Origin: Xestospongia bergquistia
Lineage: Eukaryota > Porifera > Demospongiae > Haplosclerida > Petrosiidae
Direction: 5' to 3'
DNA length: 64,000 nucleotides
Assembly: GCA_963965975.1 (NCBI GenBank)
Contig: OZ014418.1
Coordinates: 1,107,275 to 1,171,274 of the forward strand
Each line of letters begins with the position of its first letter. The stretch's first letter is position 1. The notes under the pieces are model-generated. The model did no database searches. It was not told the origin of the DNA and saw nothing but the letters and a program-made list of their open reading frames with translations. Shown here piece after piece: positions 18,672-47,524 of this stretch. The position numbers were made by a program, and so were the translations under genes.

Positions 18672-19425
18672 GGTGTCATGCCATTTCGTCTAATCCCATT
18701 TTGTCTAACAAAATGGACTTTTGTCCCATTTTGTCTAATAGTGTCTAATAGTGTAAAAGGTCTAAGATAAGTGGATTAAGGCCAGTAAAGGTGATGTAAT
18801 TCTAAAAAGGCTTTGATGTCTTTAAAGATAGAGTACTTAAGAGGAGCCATTTCATACATACAACAAATTGAATCAATGGAGTTCAAGTTGTACATCCATC
18901 AAGCAAGTGATAGCAATTGCCTTTGTTCCCACAGCTTTTGTCAGGTTAGTTTGGAGTCGATTACAAGAGAATTCTCCAGACTTTAACAACAAGGAGAGTT
19001 TTGTTCAGTACTTTGAAAGTACATGGATGGACGACAACTTTCTTATTCATTCTTGGAATGTTTATACACAAGAGGGTCCTCGCACTAGTAACAATGCTGA
19101 AGAATGGCATAGTAAAATGAAGAAACTTGCTGGGAATTCACACCCAAACATTTACAAGGCAGTCTGAACAAGCTGCAACAGAAGTCAGTTTAATGCAGCT
19201 GGCTGCAGGAGGGCTTCCAAGAATACAGAAACCACGAGAACAGACTGAAAACTATTAAGGAAAAGCATGAAGCAGGACATTATATGTTACAAGAACTTCT
19301 TAGGGCATATAGCCATTGGGTATCTTTGTAATTACTGTTATTTAAATCACTTTAGTTTTTAGACGAAATGGGACAACTGTACATTTTGTTAGACGAAATG
19401 GGATTAGACGAAATGGCTATAAACC
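18672..19425 (+). mobile_element. MULE DNA transposon relic, 754 bp
   Basis: Long terminal inverted repeats: 18680-18715 and 19382-19417 match over 36 bp with one mismatch, and similarity extends to about 59 bp. The direct repeat CAATGACT(GG) flanks the element (18664-18671; 19426-19433), the 8-10 bp duplication typical of Mutator-like elements. Unit B (near 23398-23412) has a single uninterrupted CAATGACTGGCATAT, i.e. the empty site. Internally deleted; only a transposase C-terminal fragment is left. Confidence 0.9.
18868..19167 (+). pseudogene. MULE transposase C-terminal fragment
   Basis: About 99 codons with the pattern found at the C-terminus of FLYWCH/MULE-type transposases: FVRLVWSRLQ, then W-x-Y (SWNVYTQEG), RTSNNAEEWHSKMKK and NSHPNIYK. 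The catalytic core lies upstream in such proteins and is missing here. The frame breaks just after 19167, with further residual similarity to about 19260. Confidence 0.75.
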
Positions 19426-19449
19426 CAATGACTGGCATATAATAACCAA

Positions 19450-19790
19450 GTGACACCATACTCACTTACATTCATCAGTCTAATGTCATCAAAATGATAC
19501 CATACTCACTTACATTCATCAGTCTAATGTAATTAAAGGTCATCAAAATGACACCATACTCACTCACATTCATCAGTCTAATGTCATCAAAATGACACCA
19601 TACTCACTCACATTCATCAGTCTAATGTAATTAAAGGTCATCAAAATGACACCATACTCACGTTCACCCACATTCATCAGTCTAATGTAATTAAAGGTCA
19701 CCAAAATGACACCATACTCACATTCACTCACATTCATCAGTCTAATATAATTAAAGGTCACCAAATGTTACTTACATTCATCAGTGTAAT
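19450..19790. repeat. Minisatellite upstream of ADP-ribosyltransferase-like gene (unit A)
   Basis: Tandem copies of a unit of about 40-66 bp built from CATTCATCAGTCTAATGT, an optional AATTAAAGGT, and CACCATACTCAC. The last, partial copy runs to within ~125 bp of the gene start at 19917. Unit B has a shorter version (23408-23645). Confidence 0.85.
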
Positions 19791-19916
19791 GTAATGAAAG
19801 GTGACTTTACTTCCACAACACATTTGAGGTGTCATATAGTTATTAATAAGACAGCTAGTGGATATTATATAAATGTAGTCAGTTCATTGATTTTTACAAT
19901 ATTAGCTGATCACACA

Positions 19917-21128
19917 ATGTGGACAATAGTTGAAATTATCAATAATACTTCTCCTCAACAACAGATTCTTCTCAGTGGTGGAGGAGATATTGTAGGTGTC
20001 CAACGTGGACCAGAGGGATCAAGTTATCGTATCATTGTCTTTAACAAAGGGTTCTTGGATCTTGTTGATGTTGGATGGGGCACAAGCAGTTGGGAGATCG
20101 ATATTAATACAAATCGCTTTAAATATCAAGGAGAAGGCCAAGTGACACTTACCTTTAACAATGATGGTACTTTTGCAGCTACTGGACAAGGTAATGACAT
20201 CACTGGGTACTTGCTTCCTCTGCTACCCATCTCTGAAGTTGACATTGCACTCCTTAAAGCAATGATGGAGATAAAGTTAGTGCCATACCAGAATATACCT
20301 GATGCTCCAGGAAAAACCGATGAAGAGATAACAGAGGCTGGAAACTTATACTTCCCATTTGCAGGCTCCACTGATAGTAGGATTTTGTCCTATTGTGTAT
20401 ATGATTGGACTTCTCCAAGTTTTTTCAGAAATGTAATCATTAAAGTCTTTCGTTACACAGGAGTACAAGGCAAACCACTGGATCAACCAACAATTACTAA
20501 TGTTATTTGGACCTCTGATTGGCCACCTTTTACACCTCAAGATGAAGATTTTATGCACTCTCTTTTAATGGTTCCAGCAAACAGTGAGGAAGACGTGGCT
20601 GGGCAGCTAGAGCAAAATCATTATGAACTCTATGCTTTTAGTGAAGCTCAAAATGACCTCAACAGCATTGCCTTCTACTCCATGCCACGTACAAGTACTC
20701 ACAATATACCACAACTCTTTAGCGGACAGCCCGATATTAGCAACTTGGGTCTTGATCGTTTTGCTCCAGAATTCTTGGAATTTCCTGGCAATGCTGGTCC
20801 AACTACTGACCCTCTTGAGATGCCATTTAATGATGCTTTGAACACTGTTTTCCAAGTTGGTAATACCATCACTTCAAAGGGTGTCCTAAGCTTTACCAGC
20901 AGTCAAGATACCGCCTTACAATACTCTAATGGTATCTTACTGGTAGTTAATCCACCTTCAGGAGCAATTTCATGGGCTAATGCATCATACATTACTCCTC
21001 TTTCAACTGATCCTGCCAAGGATGAGTATACGTTTGCTCCTGGCAGTCAGTTCTACATTCAAAATGTCGAGCAACAGACCATTTCTGGTAAAGATGTATG
21101 GGTTTTCACCATGCGTAATACAGGCTAA
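19917..21128 (+). CDS. ADP-ribosyltransferase-like protein, copy 2
   Basis: Single-exon, 403 residues from the ATG that aligns with copy 1 (MWTIVEIINN). An upstream in-frame ATG at 19794 would add 41 residues, but it falls in the tail of the minisatellite and copy 1 lacks it. The R-S-E-like layout is conserved at the same residue numbers: R258 (FYSMPR), S325 (SFTSS), E370 (KDEYTFAPGSQF). The middle segment (about residues 115-190) contains the very conserved KLVPYQNIPDAPGKT and EAGNLYFPFA stretches. The N-terminal beta-rich domain has the GGGD and RGPEGSSYRIIVFNKGF motifs. No secretion signal, so probably intracellular. Modification target unknown; NAD glycohydrolase or catalytically inert forms are also possible. 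Confidence 0.68.
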   Translation: MWTIVEIINNTSPQQQILLSGGGDIVGVQRGPEGSSYRIIVFNKGFLDLVDVGWGTSSWEIDINTNRFKYQGEGQVTLTFNNDGTFAATGQGNDITGYLLPLLPISEVDIALLKAMMEIKLVPYQNIPDAPGKTDEEITEAGNLYFPFAGSTDSRILSYCVYDWTSPSFFRNVIIKVFRYTGVQGKPLDQPTITNVIWTSDWPPFTPQDEDFMHSLLMVPANSEEDVAGQLEQNHYELYAFSEAQNDLNSIAFYSMPRTSTHNIPQLFSGQPDISNLGLDRFAPEFLEFPGNAGPTTDPLEMPFNDALNTVFQVGNTITSKGVLSFTSSQDTALQYSNGILLVVNPPSGAISWANASYITPLSTDPAKDEYTFAPGSQFYIQNVEQQTISGKDVWVFTMRNTG

Positions 21129-22375: not shown

Positions 22376-23407
22376 GTGTTTTGTTTCTACTAACATTATT
22401 ATTTTGTTTCTCTCACTAACACTCATGTCATTTTCCTATCTCTTGATCTTGAACTTTACTTTCATTAAGTCACATGATCATGATTACACATTAATTGCCA
22501 TCAACTGCACTTGCATTTACACATATACATTACTTTGTAATATCAGTGAATAGTGAATGAATTATTTAGATCAATCACAATCTGTAATTTGAAAGGTATT
22601 GGTTACTATATATATATTTGTTAAATTTATGCCCATCATGTAGTCATTTGTGTCTGACATAATGTTAACAACAAGTTCTGTATGTTTCAGATAGTATGTT
22701 AGTTAAATTAATAAAATATTCCTAGTATATATATATATATATTATATATATTACAAGATTTGATGTCAATTTTTATTTTACTTTCATTGTTTAATCTATT
22801 GTTTTATTACATCATAAACTTGTTAAACAAGTGACAAAATTATAGTATATAATATTGATTATAATAAAACAAAAAAGGCCTTAATTGAGTTACATTCTAT
22901 TTATTTGCCAAGTTGGCAAATCCTTTTTATTTTCCCTACACTAACACTTTCGTCAATTACAAGTTTTCATTATTCTCTATATGCTAGACATGATCTATTG
23001 AACTTTAGTTATAAATATGTTCTCCTAGGCTGCTCTCAGCTTTGTGCAGTCACAAGGTTGGAACCTATAGAAAACCAATGAGATATCTGTATGGAGGGCA
23101 AATAGAACAGTGGGTCAATGTAGCCTAAATGTTTAGAGGATTAAGTCAAAGATGTACCAGCTTCAATTACCACAGTGGCTTTTTACTATATTCATCCTCT
23201 CAATCTTTGCAGGTTATAAGACCAGAGGTTTAGTTTTTTTATTGTAGTAGATAATTACAGACAATTATAAAGAGAAATACTATAATCTTATATTTATAAT
23301 AGAGGGACTAATTAACTTATAATTATATCACATATACAATTAATCTACATTATATGTTATATGATCAATATTTTTCTGATTGCACATGCATACCTTCAAT
23401 GACTGGC

Positions 23408-23645
23408 ATATAATAACCAAGTGACACCATACTCACTCACTTACATTCATCAGTCTAATGTCATCAAAATGATACCATACTCACTTACATTCATCAGTCT
23501 AATGTCATCAAAATGACACCATACTCACTCACATTCATCAGTTTAATGTAATTAAAGGTCATCAAAATGACACCATACTCACTTACATTCATCAGTCTAA
23601 TGTAATTAAAGGTCACCAAATGTTACTTACATTCATCAGTGTAAT
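23408..23645. repeat. Minisatellite upstream of ADP-ribosyltransferase-like gene (unit B)
   Basis: Same units as 19450-19790 but fewer copies. Same spacing to the following gene start. Confidence 0.85.
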
Positions 23646-23771
23646 GTAATGAAAGGTGACTTTACTTCCACAACACATTTGAGGTGTCATATAGTTATTA
23701 ATAAGACAGCTAGTGGATATTATATAAACGTAGTCAGTTCATTGACTTTTGCAATATTAGCTGATCACACA

Positions 23772-24983
23772 ATGTGGACAATAGTTGAAATTATCAATAA
23801 TACTTCTCCTCAACAACAGATTCTTATCAGTGGTGGAGGAGATATTGTAGGTGTCCGACGTGGACCAGAGGGATCAAGTTATCGTATCATTGTCTTTAAC
23901 AAAGGGTTCTTGGATCTTGTTGATGTTGGATGGGGCACAAGCAGTTGGGAGATCGATATTAATACAAATCGCTTTAAATATCAAGGAGAAGGCCAAGTGA
24001 CACTTACCTTTAACAATGATGGTACTTTTGCTGCTACTGGACAAGGTAATGACATCACTGGGTACTTGCTTCCTCTGCTACCCATCTCTGAAGTTGACAT
24101 TGCACTCCTTAAAGCAATGATGGAAATAAAGTTAGTGCCATACCAGAATATACCTGATGCTCCAGGAAAAACCGATGAAGAGATAACAGAGGCTGGTAAT
24201 TTATACTTCCCATTTGCAGGCTCCACTGATAGTAGGATTTTATCCTACTGTGTATATGATTGGACTTCTCCAAGTTTTTTCAGAAATGTAATCATTAAAG
24301 TCTTTCGTTACACAGGAGTACAAGGCAAACCACTGGATCAACCAACAATTACTAATGTTATTTGGACCTCTGATTGGCCACCTTTTACACCTCAAAATGA
24401 AGATTTTATGCACTCTCTTTTAATGGTTCCAGCAAACAGTGAGGAAGACGTAGCTGGGCAGCTAGAGCAAAATCATTACGAACTCTATGCTTTTAATGAA
24501 GCTCAAAATAACCTCAACAGCATTGCCTTCTACTCCATGCCACGTACGAGCACTCTGAATATACCACAACTCTTTAGCGGACAGCCTGATATTAGCAACT
24601 TGGGTCTTGATCGTTTTGCTCCAGAATTCTTGGAATTTCCTGGCAATGCTGGTCCAACTACTGACCCTCTTGAGATGCCATTTAATGATGCTTTGAACAC
24701 TGTTTTCCAAGTTGGTAATACCATCACTTCAAAGGGTGTCCTAAGCTTTACCAGCAGTCAAGATACTGCCTTACAATACTCCAATGGTATCTTACTGGTA
24801 GTTAATCCACCTTCAGGAGCAATTTCATGGGCTAATGCATCATACATTACTCCTCTTTCAGATGATCCTGCCAAGGATGAGTATACGTTTGCTCCTGGCA
24901 GTCAGTTCTACATTCAAAATGTTGAGCAACAGACCATTTCTGGTAAAGATGTATGGGTTTTCACCATGCGTAATACAGGCTAA
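23772..24983 (+). CDS. ADP-ribosyltransferase-like protein, copy 3
   Basis: 403 residues, differing from copy 2 at about seven positions by my count, several of them in variable loops (for example STHN/STLN, TPQDED/TPQNED, PLSTDP/PLSDDP). R258, S325 and E370 are unchanged and the frame is intact, so both duplicates appear functional. The start is the ATG matching copies 1 and 2; an in-frame upstream ATG at 23649 exists as in copy 2. The 3' flank is nearly identical to that of copy 2 for over 300 bp. Function is as uncertain as for copy 2. Confidence 0.68.
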   Translation: MWTIVEIINNTSPQQQILISGGGDIVGVRRGPEGSSYRIIVFNKGFLDLVDVGWGTSSWEIDINTNRFKYQGEGQVTLTFNNDGTFAATGQGNDITGYLLPLLPISEVDIALLKAMMEIKLVPYQNIPDAPGKTDEEITEAGNLYFPFAGSTDSRILSYCVYDWTSPSFFRNVIIKVFRYTGVQGKPLDQPTITNVIWTSDWPPFTPQNEDFMHSLLMVPANSEEDVAGQLEQNHYELYAFNEAQNNLNSIAFYSMPRTSTLNIPQLFSGQPDISNLGLDRFAPEFLEFPGNAGPTTDPLEMPFNDALNTVFQVGNTITSKGVLSFTSSQDTALQYSNGILLVVNPPSGAISWANASYITPLSDDPAKDEYTFAPGSQFYIQNVEQQTISGKDVWVFTMRNTG

Positions 24984-26551: not shown

Positions 26552-27732
26552 AGCTAAGATTAATTAATTAATGAGAGGTATTTCAATTATAACTTTATAT
26601 AGCTACGCAACAGTCTTTGGATATATCAGAATACCTTTGAGATTACATGATATACACACACACATGAGGAAAGATAATAAGGTTACTGATTAGTATTGTG
26701 TCATCATGTGTGTGATATAGAATAAAACATTGTGTTTTGTTTCATACTAACATTATCAGTTTTGTTATCCTCATTAACACTTTATGTCATTTCTCTATTT
26801 TTTCCTTTAAGATACTTTAATTCACCTGATTGTACATCAGTTGTGTGTCGTGTATTTATCAAAACTTTTACTCATATCCCAACCACACACGCCAAGGTGT
26901 CTAGTCATTTAATGATCAAGTCTATCATGCAATGTTGACTAATACCATTGTACAGGTTATATAACACACAATTTATAAGTGAGCATTAATGTCACATTTA
27001 TACTAACAATAACTTAATATATGCATCAACTCACATTAGATCATCCATTATGATATGTACATACCATGATCTGATTGATTGACTCACATTATATCATCCA
27101 TTATGATATATATGTACTATGATCTGATTGATTGACTCACATTATATCATCCATTATGATATATATGTACTATGATCTGATTGATTGACTCACATTATAT
27201 CATCCATTATGATATATATGTACTATGATCTGATTAATTGACTCACATTATATCATCCATTATGATATATATGTACTGTGATGTGATTAATTGACTCACA
27301 TTATATCATCTATATATATCCTTATTAGTCACATGAACATTGTTTTAATGTAAAGTATTAGGTTGTTAACAAAGCATGCTTGATGACATAACCATTTAAT
27401 TTAATATTACAAATAATCATGTGACAGTTAGCCTTAATTAATATGTACATCCAGGAGTATACAGAGTTTTTAGGTAACTATGATGTTCAGTAGAACATAA
27501 AATTAAGTATTAATTAAATACACACACACACACACACAGAGAGACATACATATATACATACAGGTAGAATAATCAGCACTGTTTGTAGGACAAGTTGCCA
27601 GTTAGATAAGGGAACAATTTAATTAATGAATTCTCTCAAACAATTACATAAATAAAACATTTGATAAAAATGGATCCTCTCATTAATGTAACTTCAGTAA
27701 ATTCTATAGACATTATTACAACACACACAACA
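26552..27732. other. Intergenic between duplicated region and BIRC6 3' end
   Basis: No gene seen. It contains the 53-bp array (below), a (CA)n run near 27520-27538 and AT-rich sequence that should include the BIRC6 3' UTR close to 27732. Confidence 0.5.
27030..27312. repeat. 53-bp tandem repeat, about five copies
   Basis: GACTCACATTATATCATCC recurs at an exact 53-bp spacing (27081, 27134, 27187, 27240, 27293). Each unit contains the near-palindrome around CCATTATGATATATATG. Confidence 0.9.
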
Positions 27733-28492: not shown

Positions 28493-31400
28493 TTTCTATA
28501 TCAAGTCATTCTATCATTCAATACAAACATAAGTAATAAATACTATTTGTTGTAACATAAGAATATTTAGAAAAATATCACAAAATATCATCCTAACATC
28601 ATACTACCTTTCCATCATTATAAAGGTTAGGATTAAATCGAACACTGCCATGACCTGTTGTACAAAGATTAACAGACATAGGAGAACCAGGATACCCAGG
28701 AGGAAAGAATACATCAAACAAAAAACAGCCATTTGCATAGGGAGTCTCCGAAGGGCCAGTAATAAGAACCTATAATATAGTAAAAAACATTGTGATATAA
28801 TTGAATTTAATCCTGTCTCTATCATTAAACATGGAACAATGTACATGTGCAGAGAGAGTATACCTTCATAACATCTAGTCTTTCTTCATCACATCGGACA
28901 AATACTGAGGATGATGATGACAGAGGTAGAGACGTGGAGAGAGAGGATACTTCTTGAGCAAGACGTCTTGCTCTAATGGGATTGTGAGTACCAGTAGCAG
29001 ATGTCTCTACTTGATGAGAATATTTGAAAGGGATTTTAAAGACTGCCTTTCCTTCTTCATCTAGTTCTTCTTCTGTCATTGCATATGTACCTGTAATGGA
29101 TGAAAGATACAATGTGGAATGATTAATAGACATTGTGGAGGGAGGAAGGGATTAATGAAAGATATGGACATTACTAACCAAACTGTAAAGATTTCATAGC
29201 TTCTATGTAGTTCTGTGCTTCTCCATTTACTGATAAAAGATGGCTACCACTATGTTTAGTTTCCTCTGAGCCTTTATCTGAACTCAATTGTCTCACTATC
29301 ATTGCCACTTTCTCTCCGGAACTGAGAATGAGTTCAATTACCTCAGTGAGTTCAACTGATTCACTTTCTCGACAATCTCTAATGGGACGAGGGGGGAGAG
29401 GTGGGGGAAGATCTGGTTGAGGAGGAGGAGGAAATGACAGGGGTGCAGGAGGAAGAGGAGATGACGGAGGTACAGCAGGAGGAGGAGGAGTAGATGACTG
29501 GGGTATGGGAGGTGGAAGACGATGTTGAGCTACAGGAATCAAATAAGTTTGGTGTAATATTTAGTCAAAAAATTACATTTCTGTTTTTCTAGAGATTGAG
29601 CTGTGGTAGAAGATGATGTACTGGATGGCGGTTCTACATTTCCTGTACCAGCTGGTGTTTTAGTACTCTTGTCTGCCTTTTGGCCCCTGAGATTAACATT
29701 TTTAACAAGAGTTGATTAGATCACAAACTTACCCGACAGTTTTAGTATATATCCGAGCAACTTCAGAAAGTTTCTTTATCAAAGTACTTAGTGTCATGTG
29801 CTGCTCATTATCTAACTGTACTGTTTTGTCACCATTTTCATAAATGTGTAGTTGAAGGAGAGGGTGTGTCAACGGATTACTAGCTATTGCTAACACTTGC
29901 AACAGAACAGATTTGTAGAGTTGAGTATGTTTGGATATATCCAATACTAATAGGATAGATAAGTATTAATAATAAATCCAATACTAATAGGATAGATAAG
30001 TATTAATAATAAATAGATAGATGGATAGGTGTCTTACTTGAATCATTAGTAAGATAAGAGGCTAGAGCTGGCAATAGACAAGATTCTTGTAATGTATTAA
30101 ACACATCAGGAGGATAAACCAAACTATCTGTATCAAATAACGAAACACTACTGGTCTCAGCTACTTGCTCAAAATTATTATGATTCTCTACTCTTTGAAT
30201 CTCCTCCTCTTTGGATACAGCCTGTAATTCATCACTATCATCAACTTCAGCTTTCTCCTCTAAATCGTCTCTCTTTACATTAGTAGGAACATGAAGCCAC
30301 TCCGCTAATATACCCAGACACATTGATACCAACAACTCATCAGATTTATGTTCACTTATTGTAGCAGCAATGTCCCAAGCAGAGGAGGTGGAGCCTGTTC
30401 CGAAACCAGTTCCTTTAGCCCAGTATTGTTTCTCATGAGGGACACCACCAACAGTAAATTGTTTCTTTGATCTACCAGTAAATATTTAACAACAGGACAG
30501 GTTAAGGTAAGTAGTATATCATTGACCTCATAGTCAATAGACTAAAGCAATACTATTTATATAAGTCTTATGATAAGGAAGTGATGTGAAATGACTTCCC
30601 AACTTATTTCAGTACTTATAGCATTGTCATTCCTACAACATTTTATTACTTGTGTAGTAAAATATAATTAATGTTATGTACACATACCAATACATACCAA
30701 TACATACCAATATATGGACATGATATTGTACAAATCAATTGAGGCATTGGATAACAAAGCAGGTATATTTACTAACCTTATGGGTTGGTTTCCAACAGGT
30801 GGAGCCGGCTCTACAGCTGCTGCTTCTTTAATTTGTCTTGGTGGGTGATGGCTGGCCAAAGATAGACATTTTAGTAAGTGGTGGATAATACCAACAGAAT
30901 AGATATTGTGCCTTAGTTGTCTTCCTTTTTCGTGAGTAGATGGAGCTTCTCTGATCATTTGGAAAAGGTAGAGAAAAGGAAGAAAGGAGAAAAGCTCACT
31001 CAGAGAAGATGATATTTGCTTTTCAACTGGAAAGAGAGAGAGAGAGAGAGTCAAGACAGTTACATCCATTAAAGATTTACCTTCTTCAGTAGCTCCTAAT
31101 GCTCCTCTCAAAATATACCAAGAGTTATTTCGAATACCACTTTCTCCAAGAATCACTCCATACTCTTTTAGTCTCAGACCCAGACCAAACAAAACATAGG
31201 AATGTGGTGGAAGGAAAAAAGCAGGTGCATAAGGAGGAAGCAAAGAGCAATCAACATCTTTAGCCAATGAGGTGCTGACATATGCAGAATCTTGTGGCCA
31301 TAGGCCCGCATGAACATAAGGGAACAAATCAGCCAATAGCTCAAGACCCTTCATTTTAATAAAAACTTCAAGTAGAGAAACTGAACTGGCCGGCTGCACT

Positions 31401-42000: not shown

Positions 42001-45000
42001 GTTAATGCAAGCAGGAGTGGCAAAGTTTAGCTTAATTCTCAGAGAACTTAGACACATCAGCTGATTAGGAATGTGCAGCTGGAATACATGCCTAACAAGA
42101 ACAAAATTGAGGGGTTAAAAATGTCATAAATATATGTAAAAATGTATATTATAATATTATATTTACCGTGTTGAGCCATCAGTTCTTAATTGAGGCACAT
42201 ACTTCCAAATTTTAGTGTTGAAAAGTTCGCCAGTTAATGCTTCAGTATGAGACTGTTTCTGTAACATGTGCCTCGGGCTGTGCTGATAATACCTAAATTA
42301 TGAAGGGCACAAAATAAATGTCAACTCATACATATAATATAATAATAAATATGTACATGTAATCAAAACTGAAGATTATGGATACTATAGGATAACATTG
42401 GATACTATAGGATACTATAGGATAACATTGGATATTCCTGTATAACACCTGGATACTAACAGGATATCATTGAAGTAAAAGTAATTATTACCTGAGTGGA
42501 TTGATCTCTGTCCAAAATGGCTGACAAAGAGCTGTAAAAGGAAGTCCACTTGGATCTGAGGGTATCAATCCTTGGAGTATAGTCAAATCTTGGTTTGTTA
42601 AGTATGAACCAGAGCCTTAAACAAAGAGAGAATGAAAAGAAGTCGGTAAAAATTAATGCTAACATCAAAACTTATACACAAAAACAGTTGCATAAAGGCA
42701 TTAAAAATTATATTTTTCAAATTATTTTTCCTACCTAATATTGGAGGGACATCTTCTTCTCTAGTTTCCTCTATATCCAAGAAGTGAATGGAGCTCTCAC
42801 TGCCAACAACAGCTAGCTTCTCTATCCCATTGCAATAAACACAATGGGTATACTTACACTGAGAATCAGTGTACGACATCACTTCCACCATCTCCCTCAC
42901 ATCATATATTCTCACACTCCCACTGAAAGTGACAGCTGCCAGCAATATCTTTGTCACACCATTCTTTTGACATGAAAATGGACATAGATTAACAAAGCAA
43001 GTGTCTTTAGAAGTAAAAGTCAGTCTCTTTACCAGTTCTTTATCAATTGTAGTAAATTGGTCGCTTCCTTCTTGGATACGATAAACTAGTAATGCACCAA
43101 AGTCCTCTCTATCTAACTCCACCCCTTCAGTTAAGCCTTTGTCAGTTGTTTCTATAGCAACAACTACAGCTATAAGGTTTTCTTGTGGTATGGGAACAAT
43201 GTGTCGAGCTTGTGGGAAAAATGAGCTAGAGAAAGGGAGATTAAATTCTTCAAGTGGGAGACAAAGTTCAAGTGTGGCTACGCCAGTACAAGAACTTGAA
43301 GTTCCTCCTAATAAGAGGGGTTTACCCTCTGATGATGGTATATTAACAATAGGAAGCTCATCAGGCAATAACTGATGCTCCAATATTAAATCATAAAGAT
43401 CATCAGCATCTGGAGTAGGAGCAGGTGGCTTTAATTTAGATGTTTGCAGTTTGGGTGCTGTTGGTATGGGTCTCAGACTATGTGCTATAATCATAGGATA
43501 GATCTTATCACTTTTCTTAGCAGTACAACCAGTGATAAGAGCTGGATAGATTTTATTGTCTACAGGAGCAGCTGCAGCTGCTTGGTTACTCATCTCCATA
43601 GCAACCACACAGAGAGAAGAAATTTGAATGATCTCTTCAGCATAATATGATAATGGAGGACAATTATAATGTGTTTTCTTGGGAGGGAGAGGAGGAGGGA
43701 GAGGTGAAGAGAGAGGGAGAGAGGGGTGGAGAGGGAAAGGAGGAGGAGGAGGAGGTGGAACAGTGTGTTTTCTATCAGAAACATTTGTAGACAGTTTGTC
43801 AGTCTCTTTAGGTTCGAGTGGTTGTATTTTTTTTGTTAATATTTCATTAAATAAATCAATTCTAGCATATTCCTAAATATGATGATACAAGACAAAGAAA
43901 ATGATATCATTTTTAACTCCTTTTACTCACTTGTATAAATAGAGCAGTCTCAGTATTCCACACATGAATTGTGCCATCTATTGTTGCTATAGCAACAAGT
44001 GAGGAATTATAAATTGTTGATATAGTATTGATGTGTGTACTACAATGGACAGCTGGATAAGTAGCCTCAGTAACTAGATAGAAAATAGATGATAAGTAAA
44101 ATACAATACAATTAATTGAATATACAATGGACTCTTGTAAGAATATTATATATCTTAACTACCCAAATAAATTACTAATTAACTTAATGATAATAATAAT
44201 TAATATAATAGTTAGTTAACCAGACAATTAAACATACAGACAACATGGACACTTACATGTAGCAGGTACATTGACAATTAAACATACAGACAACATGGAC
44301 ACTTACATGTAGCAGGTACATTGACAATTAAACATACAGACAACATGGACACTTACATGTAGCAGGTACATTGACAATTAAACATACAGACAACATGGAC
44401 ACTTACATGTAGCAGGTACATTGACAATTAAACATACAGACAACATGGACACTTACATGTAGCAGGTACATTGACAGTAAACATACAGACAACATGGACA
44501 CTTACATGTAGCAGGTACATTGACAGTAAACTCTCCTCTCATAAAAGGACAAGTATGGGAATGTCTTGTGTGTTCAGACCTAATAAATAGATAAAATTAA
44601 ATACATCCATTTACTGATACAATCATCCATCTGGCTGTCTAATCCATCCATCTTCCATTGGACCATCAATTTGTACATCTATCTCGTACCAAGGTTCATC
44701 TGATGACAACCAATGGTGTACGTACATACCACATGTAAAACAGGTGGTACGATCTCCTTTAGATTGAGCTAAACTACTAATAGTTCCCGAACTATTTAAC
44801 TAATAAAGATAAAAATAATATTAGTAAAGATAATATCACCTTGTGCATGCATGTTAACTTACTAATGGATATAAACCAGCTTCTGACATTTTAATTGGTT
44901 CAGCCCATCTGTAAAAGATCATATTATATTGTGAGTAAGTAAATAGAGTGAGTTAACATTTATAACTATTAATAAGATTATTAATGTTTCATAACTATTA

Positions 45001-45858: not shown

Positions 45859-47524
45859 GAGGTAGAGGTAGAGGTAGAGAGAGGTAGAGAGAGAGAGAGG
45901 TAGTGGTAGAGGTAAAGAGAGAGGTAGAGGTAGAGAGAGAGGTAGAGAGAGGTAGAAAGAGGTAGAGAAAGAGAGAGAGGTAGAGAGAGGTAGAAAGAGG
46001 TAGAGAGAGAGAGGTAAAGAGAGGTAGAGAGAGAGAGAGAGAGAGAGGTAAAGAGGTAAAGGGAGGTAGAGAGAGAGAGAGGAGTAGAAAGAGGTAGAGA
46101 GAGAGAGAGAGAGAGAGAGGTAGAGAGGTAGAGAGGTAGAGAGAGGGAAGTACAGTATTTATAAACAATACATGACTACATTAATTAATTTATACTCACT
46201 GTCTTAATAAAGGATGACTGCTGATTAGTTACATTTGATGTTTCCAGAAACTTCTCTAACGTGTTCACTAATTCTCTTACTAAAACACTAAGATCTGAAG
46301 AAACAGTACGAGCCTTTAACTCATTCAATAATAGAGATACCTGTACACAAAGAGAATATTTGCTTAATACCATAACTAAATGTATTATTGATACAGTCAA
46401 TGTTTTAGGTACATTACTATTCGCATTAATATATTAATAACATTAGCTAAACCAAAAGGTTATAGCAGTTTGGGAAAAACACTTTTAGTAAAAAGTGAGC
46501 CAGAGTACAGTACAATCAAAGGGTTAAATATAAGTGAGCCAGAGTACAGTACAATCAAAGGGTTAAATATAAGTGAGCCAGAGTAAAGTACAATCAAAGG
46601 GTTAAATATAAGTGAGCCAGAGTAAAGTACAATCAAAGGGTTAAATATAAGTAAGCAGAGTGAAGTACAATCAATTGTTAAATATAAGTGAGCCAGAGTA
46701 AAGTACAATCAATTGTTAAATATAAGTGAGTCAGATTACAGTATAACCAAAGGGTTAAATACGAGTGACATAATGAAAATCAGATTGAATATTTACTTTA
46801 AAGATGCTCATTTACACCATGCTCATTTTGAGGTCAGTGAATATATAAAAACAGAAAGAAATATATAAGAATTACTATGTCATTTTGTGTTAAAGGAATT
46901 ATACCATAGTATAAAGGACAAAACAGTAATACCAGATAACTGTTAGTGCAATGTGTTTACTCAGTAAAGATATTACTAGAATATGATAGTAATGGCATAC
47001 ATTCTTGGGACTACTTTTATTATTTAACAATACAATACAAAATCATATCAAGTACAATTCCTTTATAATTTATACTTTAATTACAAGTAATTGTCTCTTT
47101 GTAATATATTTGTTACCATATCATACCTCCTCTGAAGGAATATCAATGTCTATTAAAGCATTAGTGTCATTAGATACTGATTGAAATACAGTATCTAAAA
47201 GGAACTGTCCATTAAGTACCCTCCGAACACCCAAACTTGTTTCATTGCCAACGACCAGCTTGTTTGTGGTGGGAATTACTGAACAAAATATTGGAGTAGC
47301 TGTTTGTAGATCTATAAGAGATACAAAAATTAAGTGTAAGTTACTGTCAGGTATTAACCCAGTGTAGCCACTCTGTGTCCATGGAAGGCATCATAGCAAT
47401 GAAGAAGGCCAGACACTCCTGATACCACCAGAATACCGTAATCAGGAAGAAAGATCAATGATTGAGGTCGATCATTGTCGCCTCTTACTAACTGGAAAGA
47501 CTCCTTTAGCTGCAGATATGCCAT
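27733..47524 (-). CDS. BIRC6: BIRC6 (BRUCE/Apollon): giant IAP with BIR domain and E2/E3 ubiquitin ligase domain
   Basis: A multi-exon gene of about 20 kb encoding several thousand residues. The chosen start is the ATG at 47524 ([11 protein letters not shown]); first exons 47359-47524, 47127-47311, 46200-46340, 45612-45769. The BIR domain is split over 45027-45173, 44863-44908, 44690-44799 and 44506-44579 and has the zinc ligands: CFTCG, then [16 protein letters not shown]. The WD-like segment continues through 43931-44073 and the long exon 42736-43872. The middle (29.5-42.6 kb) is the long helical scaffold. The C-terminal UBC domain is in exons 28864-29090, 28618-28769, 28348-28425 and 28061-28249: [26 protein letters not shown] and the active-site Cys in [20 protein letters not shown]. 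The last exon (27733-27951) is a charged, coiled-coil-like tail. The family ubiquitinates caspases, SMAC/HTRA2 and LC3 and blocks apoptosis and autophagy. Internal exons not listed were recognised from reading frames but not all boundaries were fixed. Confidence 0.93.
28448..28488. repeat. (GA)n microsatellite in BIRC6 intron
   Basis: Reads (CT)n on the sense strand, just upstream of the acceptor of the exon ending at 28425 that begins with the active-site Cys codon region. Confidence 0.95.
29380..29529 (-). other. Proline-rich linker before the BIRC6 UBC domain
   Basis: Part of exon 29179-29529. Dense PPP runs (for example [21 protein letters not shown]) of the SH3/EVH1/WW-binding type, directly N-terminal to the segment leading into the UBC domain. 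A second proline run is coded at about 43681-43765. Confidence 0.7.
32969..33012. repeat. (CT)n microsatellite, antisense orientation in BIRC6 intron
   Basis: One of two tracts (with 33336-33404) that read (GA)n on the BIRC6 sense strand, unlike most others in the window. Confidence 0.95.
33336..33404. repeat. (CT)n microsatellite, antisense orientation in BIRC6 intron
   Basis: Intron between the exon near 33443-33576 and the exon ending near 33300. It lies near the donor side on the sense strand. Confidence 0.95.
35890..36001. repeat. (GA)n/(GGGA)n microsatellite in BIRC6 intron
   Basis: On the sense strand about 110 bp of CT/CCCT repeat upstream of the acceptor for the exon that begins at about 35837. 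Any ORF through it is an artefact. Confidence 0.95.
44223..44530. repeat. 50-bp tandem array that includes a BIRC6 exon end and splice donor
   Basis: Six full units at 44223, 44273, 44323, 44373, 44423 and 44473 (the last 49 bp), plus a partial unit overlapping the BIR exon 44506-44579. On the sense strand each unit reads CAATGTACCTGCTACAT followed by GTAAGTG, i.e. the last codons of the exon plus its donor, then intron sequence. The gene-proximal copy is the one used in the predicted protein; five more identical donors follow in the intron. Confidence 0.92.
45777..46150. repeat. Long (GA)n and GAGGTA satellite in BIRC6 intron
   Basis: About 370 bp of GA repeats interrupted by GAGGTA units. 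On the sense strand it is a continuous pyrimidine-rich tract ending at the acceptor of exon 45612-45769. Confidence 0.95.
46490..46770. repeat. About 39-bp tandem repeat in BIRC6 intron
   Basis: Around seven copies of GTGAGCCAGAGTA followed by AAGTACAATCAAAGGGTTAAATA-like sequence; unit lengths shorten in the later copies. Lies in the intron between 46340 and 47127. Confidence 0.88.

Follow-up and report, generated by a model that had tools for sequence, protein, structure and literature searches.

A minisatellite across an exon end sets six copies of one splice donor in tandem in a predicted sponge BIRC6 gene

What becomes of a splice donor when the repeat that contains it is copied again and again into the intron? 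The question is raised by a locus on contig OZ014418.1 of the Xestospongia bergquistia assembly GCA_963965975.1. Within the stretch of DNA that we analysed (64,000 nucleotides, positions 1,107,275 to 1,171,274 of the forward strand; hereafter the window, whose own numbering is used throughout), a minisatellite takes in the end of an exon together with its GTAAGT donor. A sequence-only reading of this array had proposed that its copy number could tune the output of the gene through the reading frame, and that choosing among the donors would decide between BIR-containing and truncated BIRC6.

The host gene is identified as BIRC6 by protein homology, as that reading had it. The spliced piece comprising the BIR and the following exons matched BIRC6 chains in the PDB, presumably human, with a best E of 1.4e-17; among 40 distinct sequences, BIRC6 filled the top five places. 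The same piece gave a Pfam BIR match with an E of 4e-11 (4.2e-5 for the single ORF 44623-44799). Towards the gene's 3' end, a UBC exon (28599-28769, minus strand) matched BIRC6 structures in the PDB with an E of 1e-23, its nine best PDB sequences being either BIRC6 or 'BIR repeat containing ubiquitin-conjugating enzyme' (E at most 1.7e-22). A 15-exon hand model running from 47311 down to 38780 reads through 1723 codons with zero stops; because its boundaries were picked by eye, the open frame is no independent proof of each of them. The model covers these 8.5 kb, and the region from 38780 to 28769 lies outside it. ORF 27951-27733 was taken as the last BIRC6 exon. The exon that follows the array gave a weak WD40 match, under the curated cut-off, and a 1138-nt exon contains a low-complexity repeat (43682-43755) that encodes a proline-rich stretch. 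The exon bearing the array had been described as carrying the BIR zinc ligands, which is true of the last two, in our assumption the His and the final Cys; the first two, the cysteines of CFTC, are encoded by the preceding exon.

Minisatellites are made of head-to-tail units of roughly 10-100 bp. TRF reported an array of this kind at 44223-44525 (period 50, 6.1 copies, 98% matches, score 592), which is plainly non-random as a tandem repeat. Dissection into units placed it at 44530-44223 on the minus strand, with units starting at 44530, 44481, 44432, 44382, 44332 and 44282 and measuring, in that order, 49, 49, 50, 50, 50 and 50 bp, followed by a 10-base partial unit. The BIRC6 donor stands in six tandem copies on the minus strand, at the place where it had been claimed; the unit of 50 bp given at the time fits the last four units, the first two being one base shorter. 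Each full unit consists of 25-26 nt of exon end, in place of the approximately 17 nt first estimated, followed by GTAAGT and 18 nt of intron, and the array sets in 25 nt upstream of the end of exon 44579-44506. The exon end and donor read ACAT/GTAAGT (the slash marks the exon end) in all six copies, one exon-proximal and five intronic, all in equal context. Units 1 and 2 start with TTTACTGTC, and units 3-6 as well as the partial unit start with TTTAATTGTC. Past this start motif 6/6 units agree in sequence, and units 3-6 are identical to one another. A second donor-like hexamer, GTATGT, spans the joint of each full unit with the next (CTGTATGTTTA). The coordinates of the features are collected in Table 1.

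Table 1. Features of the BIRC6 donor array and its neighbouring exons. On the minus strand, each GTAAGT located by unit dissection begins at the higher coordinate of its row; nt values with a plus sign are additions to the mRNA relative to D1.
Feature	Position	Strand	Basis
BIRC6 exon with first two BIR cysteines (CFTC), weak donor TTG/GTACGA	44690..44799	-	Pfam BIR, hand model, donor rank 14/15
74-nt BIRC6 exon completing the BIR; repeat unit 1 opens with its final 25 nt	44506..44579	-	dissection, PDB alignment, Pfam, hand model
Minisatellite	44223..44530	-	TRF and unit dissection
Donor D1, GTAAGT; frame kept into next exon	44500..44505	-	sole open product of six; BIRC6 alignment crosses junction
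Donor copy D2, +49 nt; TGA just inside next exon	44451..44456	-	dissection, simulation
Donor copy D3, +99 nt; length in frame, product with stop	44401..44406	-	dissection, simulation
Donor copy D4, +149 nt	44351..44356	-	dissection, simulation
Donor copy D5, +199 nt	44301..44306	-	dissection, simulation
Donor copy D6, +249 nt; length in frame, product with stop; intron left, 183 nt	44251..44256	-	dissection, simulation
Partial unit TTTAATTGTC, short intronic motif similar to TTTACTGTC in the exon (44530-44522); probable slippage partner	44223..44232	-	sequence
Following BIRC6 exon, acceptor TTTTCTATCTAG/	43931..44073	-	PDB alignment, Pfam, hand model

The frame of BIRC6, which stays open through D1, suggests that this is the productive donor. 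The product predicted from D1 aligns to BIRC6 of the PDB across the splice junction, where a stretch of 18 residues ending in FTEATYPA, the F of which is split by the intron, is matched to GEHTQNVPLSVTLATSPA. A nine-base donor, CAT/GTAAGT, is common to all six copies, and on a leave-one-out matrix, whose scores are rough because they are built from few sites, D1 ranks second of the 15 modelled donors. The exon 45173-45027 (minus strand) ends in CAT/GTAAGA, closely resembling the repeated donor.

Splicing from any of the other copies is predicted to end the protein early, a premature stop being found in 5/5 products of D2-D6. One added unit shifts the frame, as had been foreseen, the addition by D2 being 49 nt. 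In the products of D3-D6 the frame continues into the intron, passes through the second copy in a different register and is stopped by a TAA within the donor of that copy, at 44455-44453 (TAC ATG TAA). Measured from the end of the following exon, the distal-donor stops lie 136-339 nt upstream, and under the exon-junction rule such stops mark an mRNA as a candidate for nonsense-mediated decay; mRNAs spliced from the distal donors would therefore probably be truncated and decay-prone. The BIR itself is not at stake. Its Pfam match ends at residue 50 and the array begins at residue 54, four residues further on, so that donor choice cannot remove it and use of a distal donor would lose the downstream part only. 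The proposed alternative between BIR-containing and truncated products does not apply to this array, since every product keeps the BIR.

We favour, with a probability of about 0.72, a young and near-neutral minisatellite that was born by slippage between exon and intron, with D1 as the productive donor and the distal donors as decoys at most. The alignment of BIRC6 through the D1 junction points to unit 1 as the original coding copy and to the others as intronic copies and, as the protein homology sits in unit 1, growth would have proceeded from the exon into the intron. Replication or repair most likely slipped between two similar motifs of 9-10 bases, the exonic TTTACTGTC and the intronic TTTAATTGTC, which, judging from the present layout, would have stood ~50 bp apart before the repeat arose. 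The duplicate produced first by such an event would carry the intron-type joint that units 3-6 show. The exon-type start of unit 2 would call for an extra duplication of unit 1, or for conversion, and the array would have lengthened into the intron by unit duplication, any products of the decoy donors being cleared by nonsense-mediated decay. The identity of units 3-6 fits an array that is either young or homogenised. We conclude that recent, near-neutral growth of the repeat is the most likely process to have turned one donor into six.

Copies of a donor need not be silent. If the extra donors competed with D1 for U1 snRNP and for the acceptor, the array would act as a copy-number damper, longer alleles of this series of 'poison donors' yielding more truncated, decay-prone mRNA and a lower dose of BIRC6. 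Each extra donor equals D1, with its second place among 15 on the small leave-one-out matrix, and all five distal products contain a stop, as this reading would have it. Intron length points the same way: the intron measures 432 nt via D1 and 183 nt via D6, and the latter is closer to the median of 121.5 nt for the modelled introns (n=14, the 432-nt array intron included). Among equal splice sites, a preference for the donor that lies closest to the acceptor has often been described, and a literature search for this preference found no source on the topic. Such a preference would favour the poison copies, and this counts against a purely silent array. A fold of the whole exon and intron was not unusually stable (z -0.03, 49/100 shuffles as good, from one fold). 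Against the damper stands the fact that the single assembly at hand shows nothing of copy-number variation, and we consider this explanation unlikely, leaving a modest chance for a copy-number-dependent lowering of BIRC6 output. Were transcribed alleles to vary in copy number, the locus would be a natural minigene, with identical donors at 50-nt steps facing one acceptor. BIRC6 can use only one of the six donors and, if the extra ones do act as poison donors, the array would amount to a natural experiment on the spliceosome's choice among identical donors.

Tandem arrays can be miscounted during assembly, and the copy number of the reference might be wrong or the array absent from the genome. 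The ordered layout of the two unit types and the unique flanks argue against such an artefact, as does the array's length, 300 bp being less than that of a typical long read; the assembly, whose contigs reach 28 Mb, was presumably made from such reads. We regard an artefact as quite improbable. We give slightly less credence to the idea that the array belongs to a dispersed repeat family and arrived with a donor-like site of its own. Further minisatellites are present in the window, which would suit this idea, but unit 1 is partly BIRC6 coding sequence, aligned to PDB chains, and a search of the 146-Mb assembly returned one full match to the array (the repeat counts of the tool are lower bounds, so the search may under-count). 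The other match, 71% over 192 query bases, lies in L002, which by eye consists of diverged TGTCCTAATGTAA-like repeats and looks unrelated; on the single full match and the nature of this second one, the dispersed family was rejected.

A frame-tuning switch, by which certain copy numbers would let a distal donor yield a longer BIRC6 that is still in frame, has next to no chance of being correct: 99 and 249 nt, the lengths added by D3 and D6, are indeed multiples of three, but both additions carry an in-frame TAA, because the second copy is read as ATG-TAA, and no distal-donor product was open (0/408) in simulated arrays of 1-3 units of 49 bp and 0-15 of 50, either unit, when repeated, reaching a stop by codon 42 in all three frames. 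The expectation that three added units restore the frame fails at 149 nt, which is no multiple of three, and tuning by frame as a whole is refuted for the sequence as assembled.

A repeat coupled to donor choice had also been called unusual, an assessment weakened by human IFI6 (6-16), for which a minisatellite supplying multiple donor sites is reported in a title cited in PMC2572611, PMC2915984 and PMC4526556. According to the last of these, two downstream repeat units of IFI6 are used as donors, giving three mRNA species. The BIRC6 array likewise has a unit that contains the exon end and its donor and so supplies extra donors; judged by its predicted exon structure, it is of the same kind in layout, and IFI6 is its closest precedent. 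Use of the distal donors is reported for IFI6, whereas in BIRC6 it is hypothetical. The IFI6 unit is said to be 12 bp long, a multiple of three, so that donor choice there gives small in-frame insertions; the units of BIRC6, in contrast, are of 49 and 50 bp, and all five distal products stop. Keeping the frame is, however, no general property of minisatellite-supplied donors. This difference may have a general ground. GTAAG holds TAA in one frame, and a donor-bearing unit whose length is not a multiple of three would for this reason meet a TAA within three successive copies, which suggests that protein variants can arise only from donor-bearing units whose length is a multiple of three, as that of IFI6 is said to be.

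Splice signals are similarly multiplied in intron gain, by tandem duplication of segments that lie at an exon boundary or span it. Passages of PMC4974935 describe intron gain by tandem duplication of segments bearing splice sites (the Rogers model, ATP2A1 and potato RdRp) and, for SPOG_01682 and SOCG_00815 of fission yeast, an exonic segment of 24 bp that was duplicated repeatedly. In the classical model, a new intron draws both its donor and its acceptor from a duplicated AGGT, whereas in BIRC6 the copying took in donors alone and made an existing intron longer. AGGT is absent from both unit types of the BIRC6 array, and the duplicate supplies no acceptor. In unit size and copy number the array is like ordinary intronic minisatellites of this genome, such as that at 46493-46768 in the same gene (39 bp x 7.2). 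The latter is wholly contained in a modelled intron, whereas the donor array takes in the exon end and donor.

How surprising is it that a minisatellite should strike a donor? Random placement of one unit per array over the modelled 8.5-kb part of the gene struck a donor in 17% of trials. Variants of the trial over the same part gave 13% when only the two units of at least 30 bp were placed, and 87% with whole arrays; all these values are rough, as they derive from 5 TRF arrays, the BIRC6 donor array itself among them. At chance rates of 17% and 13%, one such case per window is no great surprise, within a sample too small to give a rate.

We also compared minisatellites of the window with those of 17 sampled 10-kb stretches, 234 kb in total, leaving out L001, L002, arrays whose period was below 20 or whose copies numbered under 3, and any weaker row that overlapped a better one. 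This sample contained 9 arrays in the window and 11 in the stretches. In 2/20 arrays, both of them in the window, GTAAGT was present in 60% or more of the units; this was true of 0/11 arrays from the stretches, so that donor-repeating arrays may be less common than one would judge from the window. For the other 89 hexamers of equal composition the mean was 0.66 arrays, and 16/90, GTAAGT counted in, reached at least two. GTAAGT is therefore not clearly enriched in these minisatellites (20 arrays, 234 kb): it lies above the mean, yet is matched or passed by others.

Long tandem arrays of other kinds were seen in L010 (1-6778; 218-bp unit x 31.1, 95%) and in L016 (4402-10000; 99-bp unit x 56.8, 71%), and the unit of the latter resembles ankyrin-type coding repeats by eye. 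Within the window, donor-like motifs also recur in most units of the array at 27029-27310, beyond the presumed last BIRC6 exon, and of those at 19485-19765 and 23435-23654, which lie in two similar stretches. By eye these stretches, 19200-20400 and 23000-24200, are closely alike; a related array (with GATGAATGTGAGTGAGTATGGTGTCATTTTGATGACATTAGACT in its unit) comes after each of them, and they perhaps represent a duplication that took its minisatellite along.
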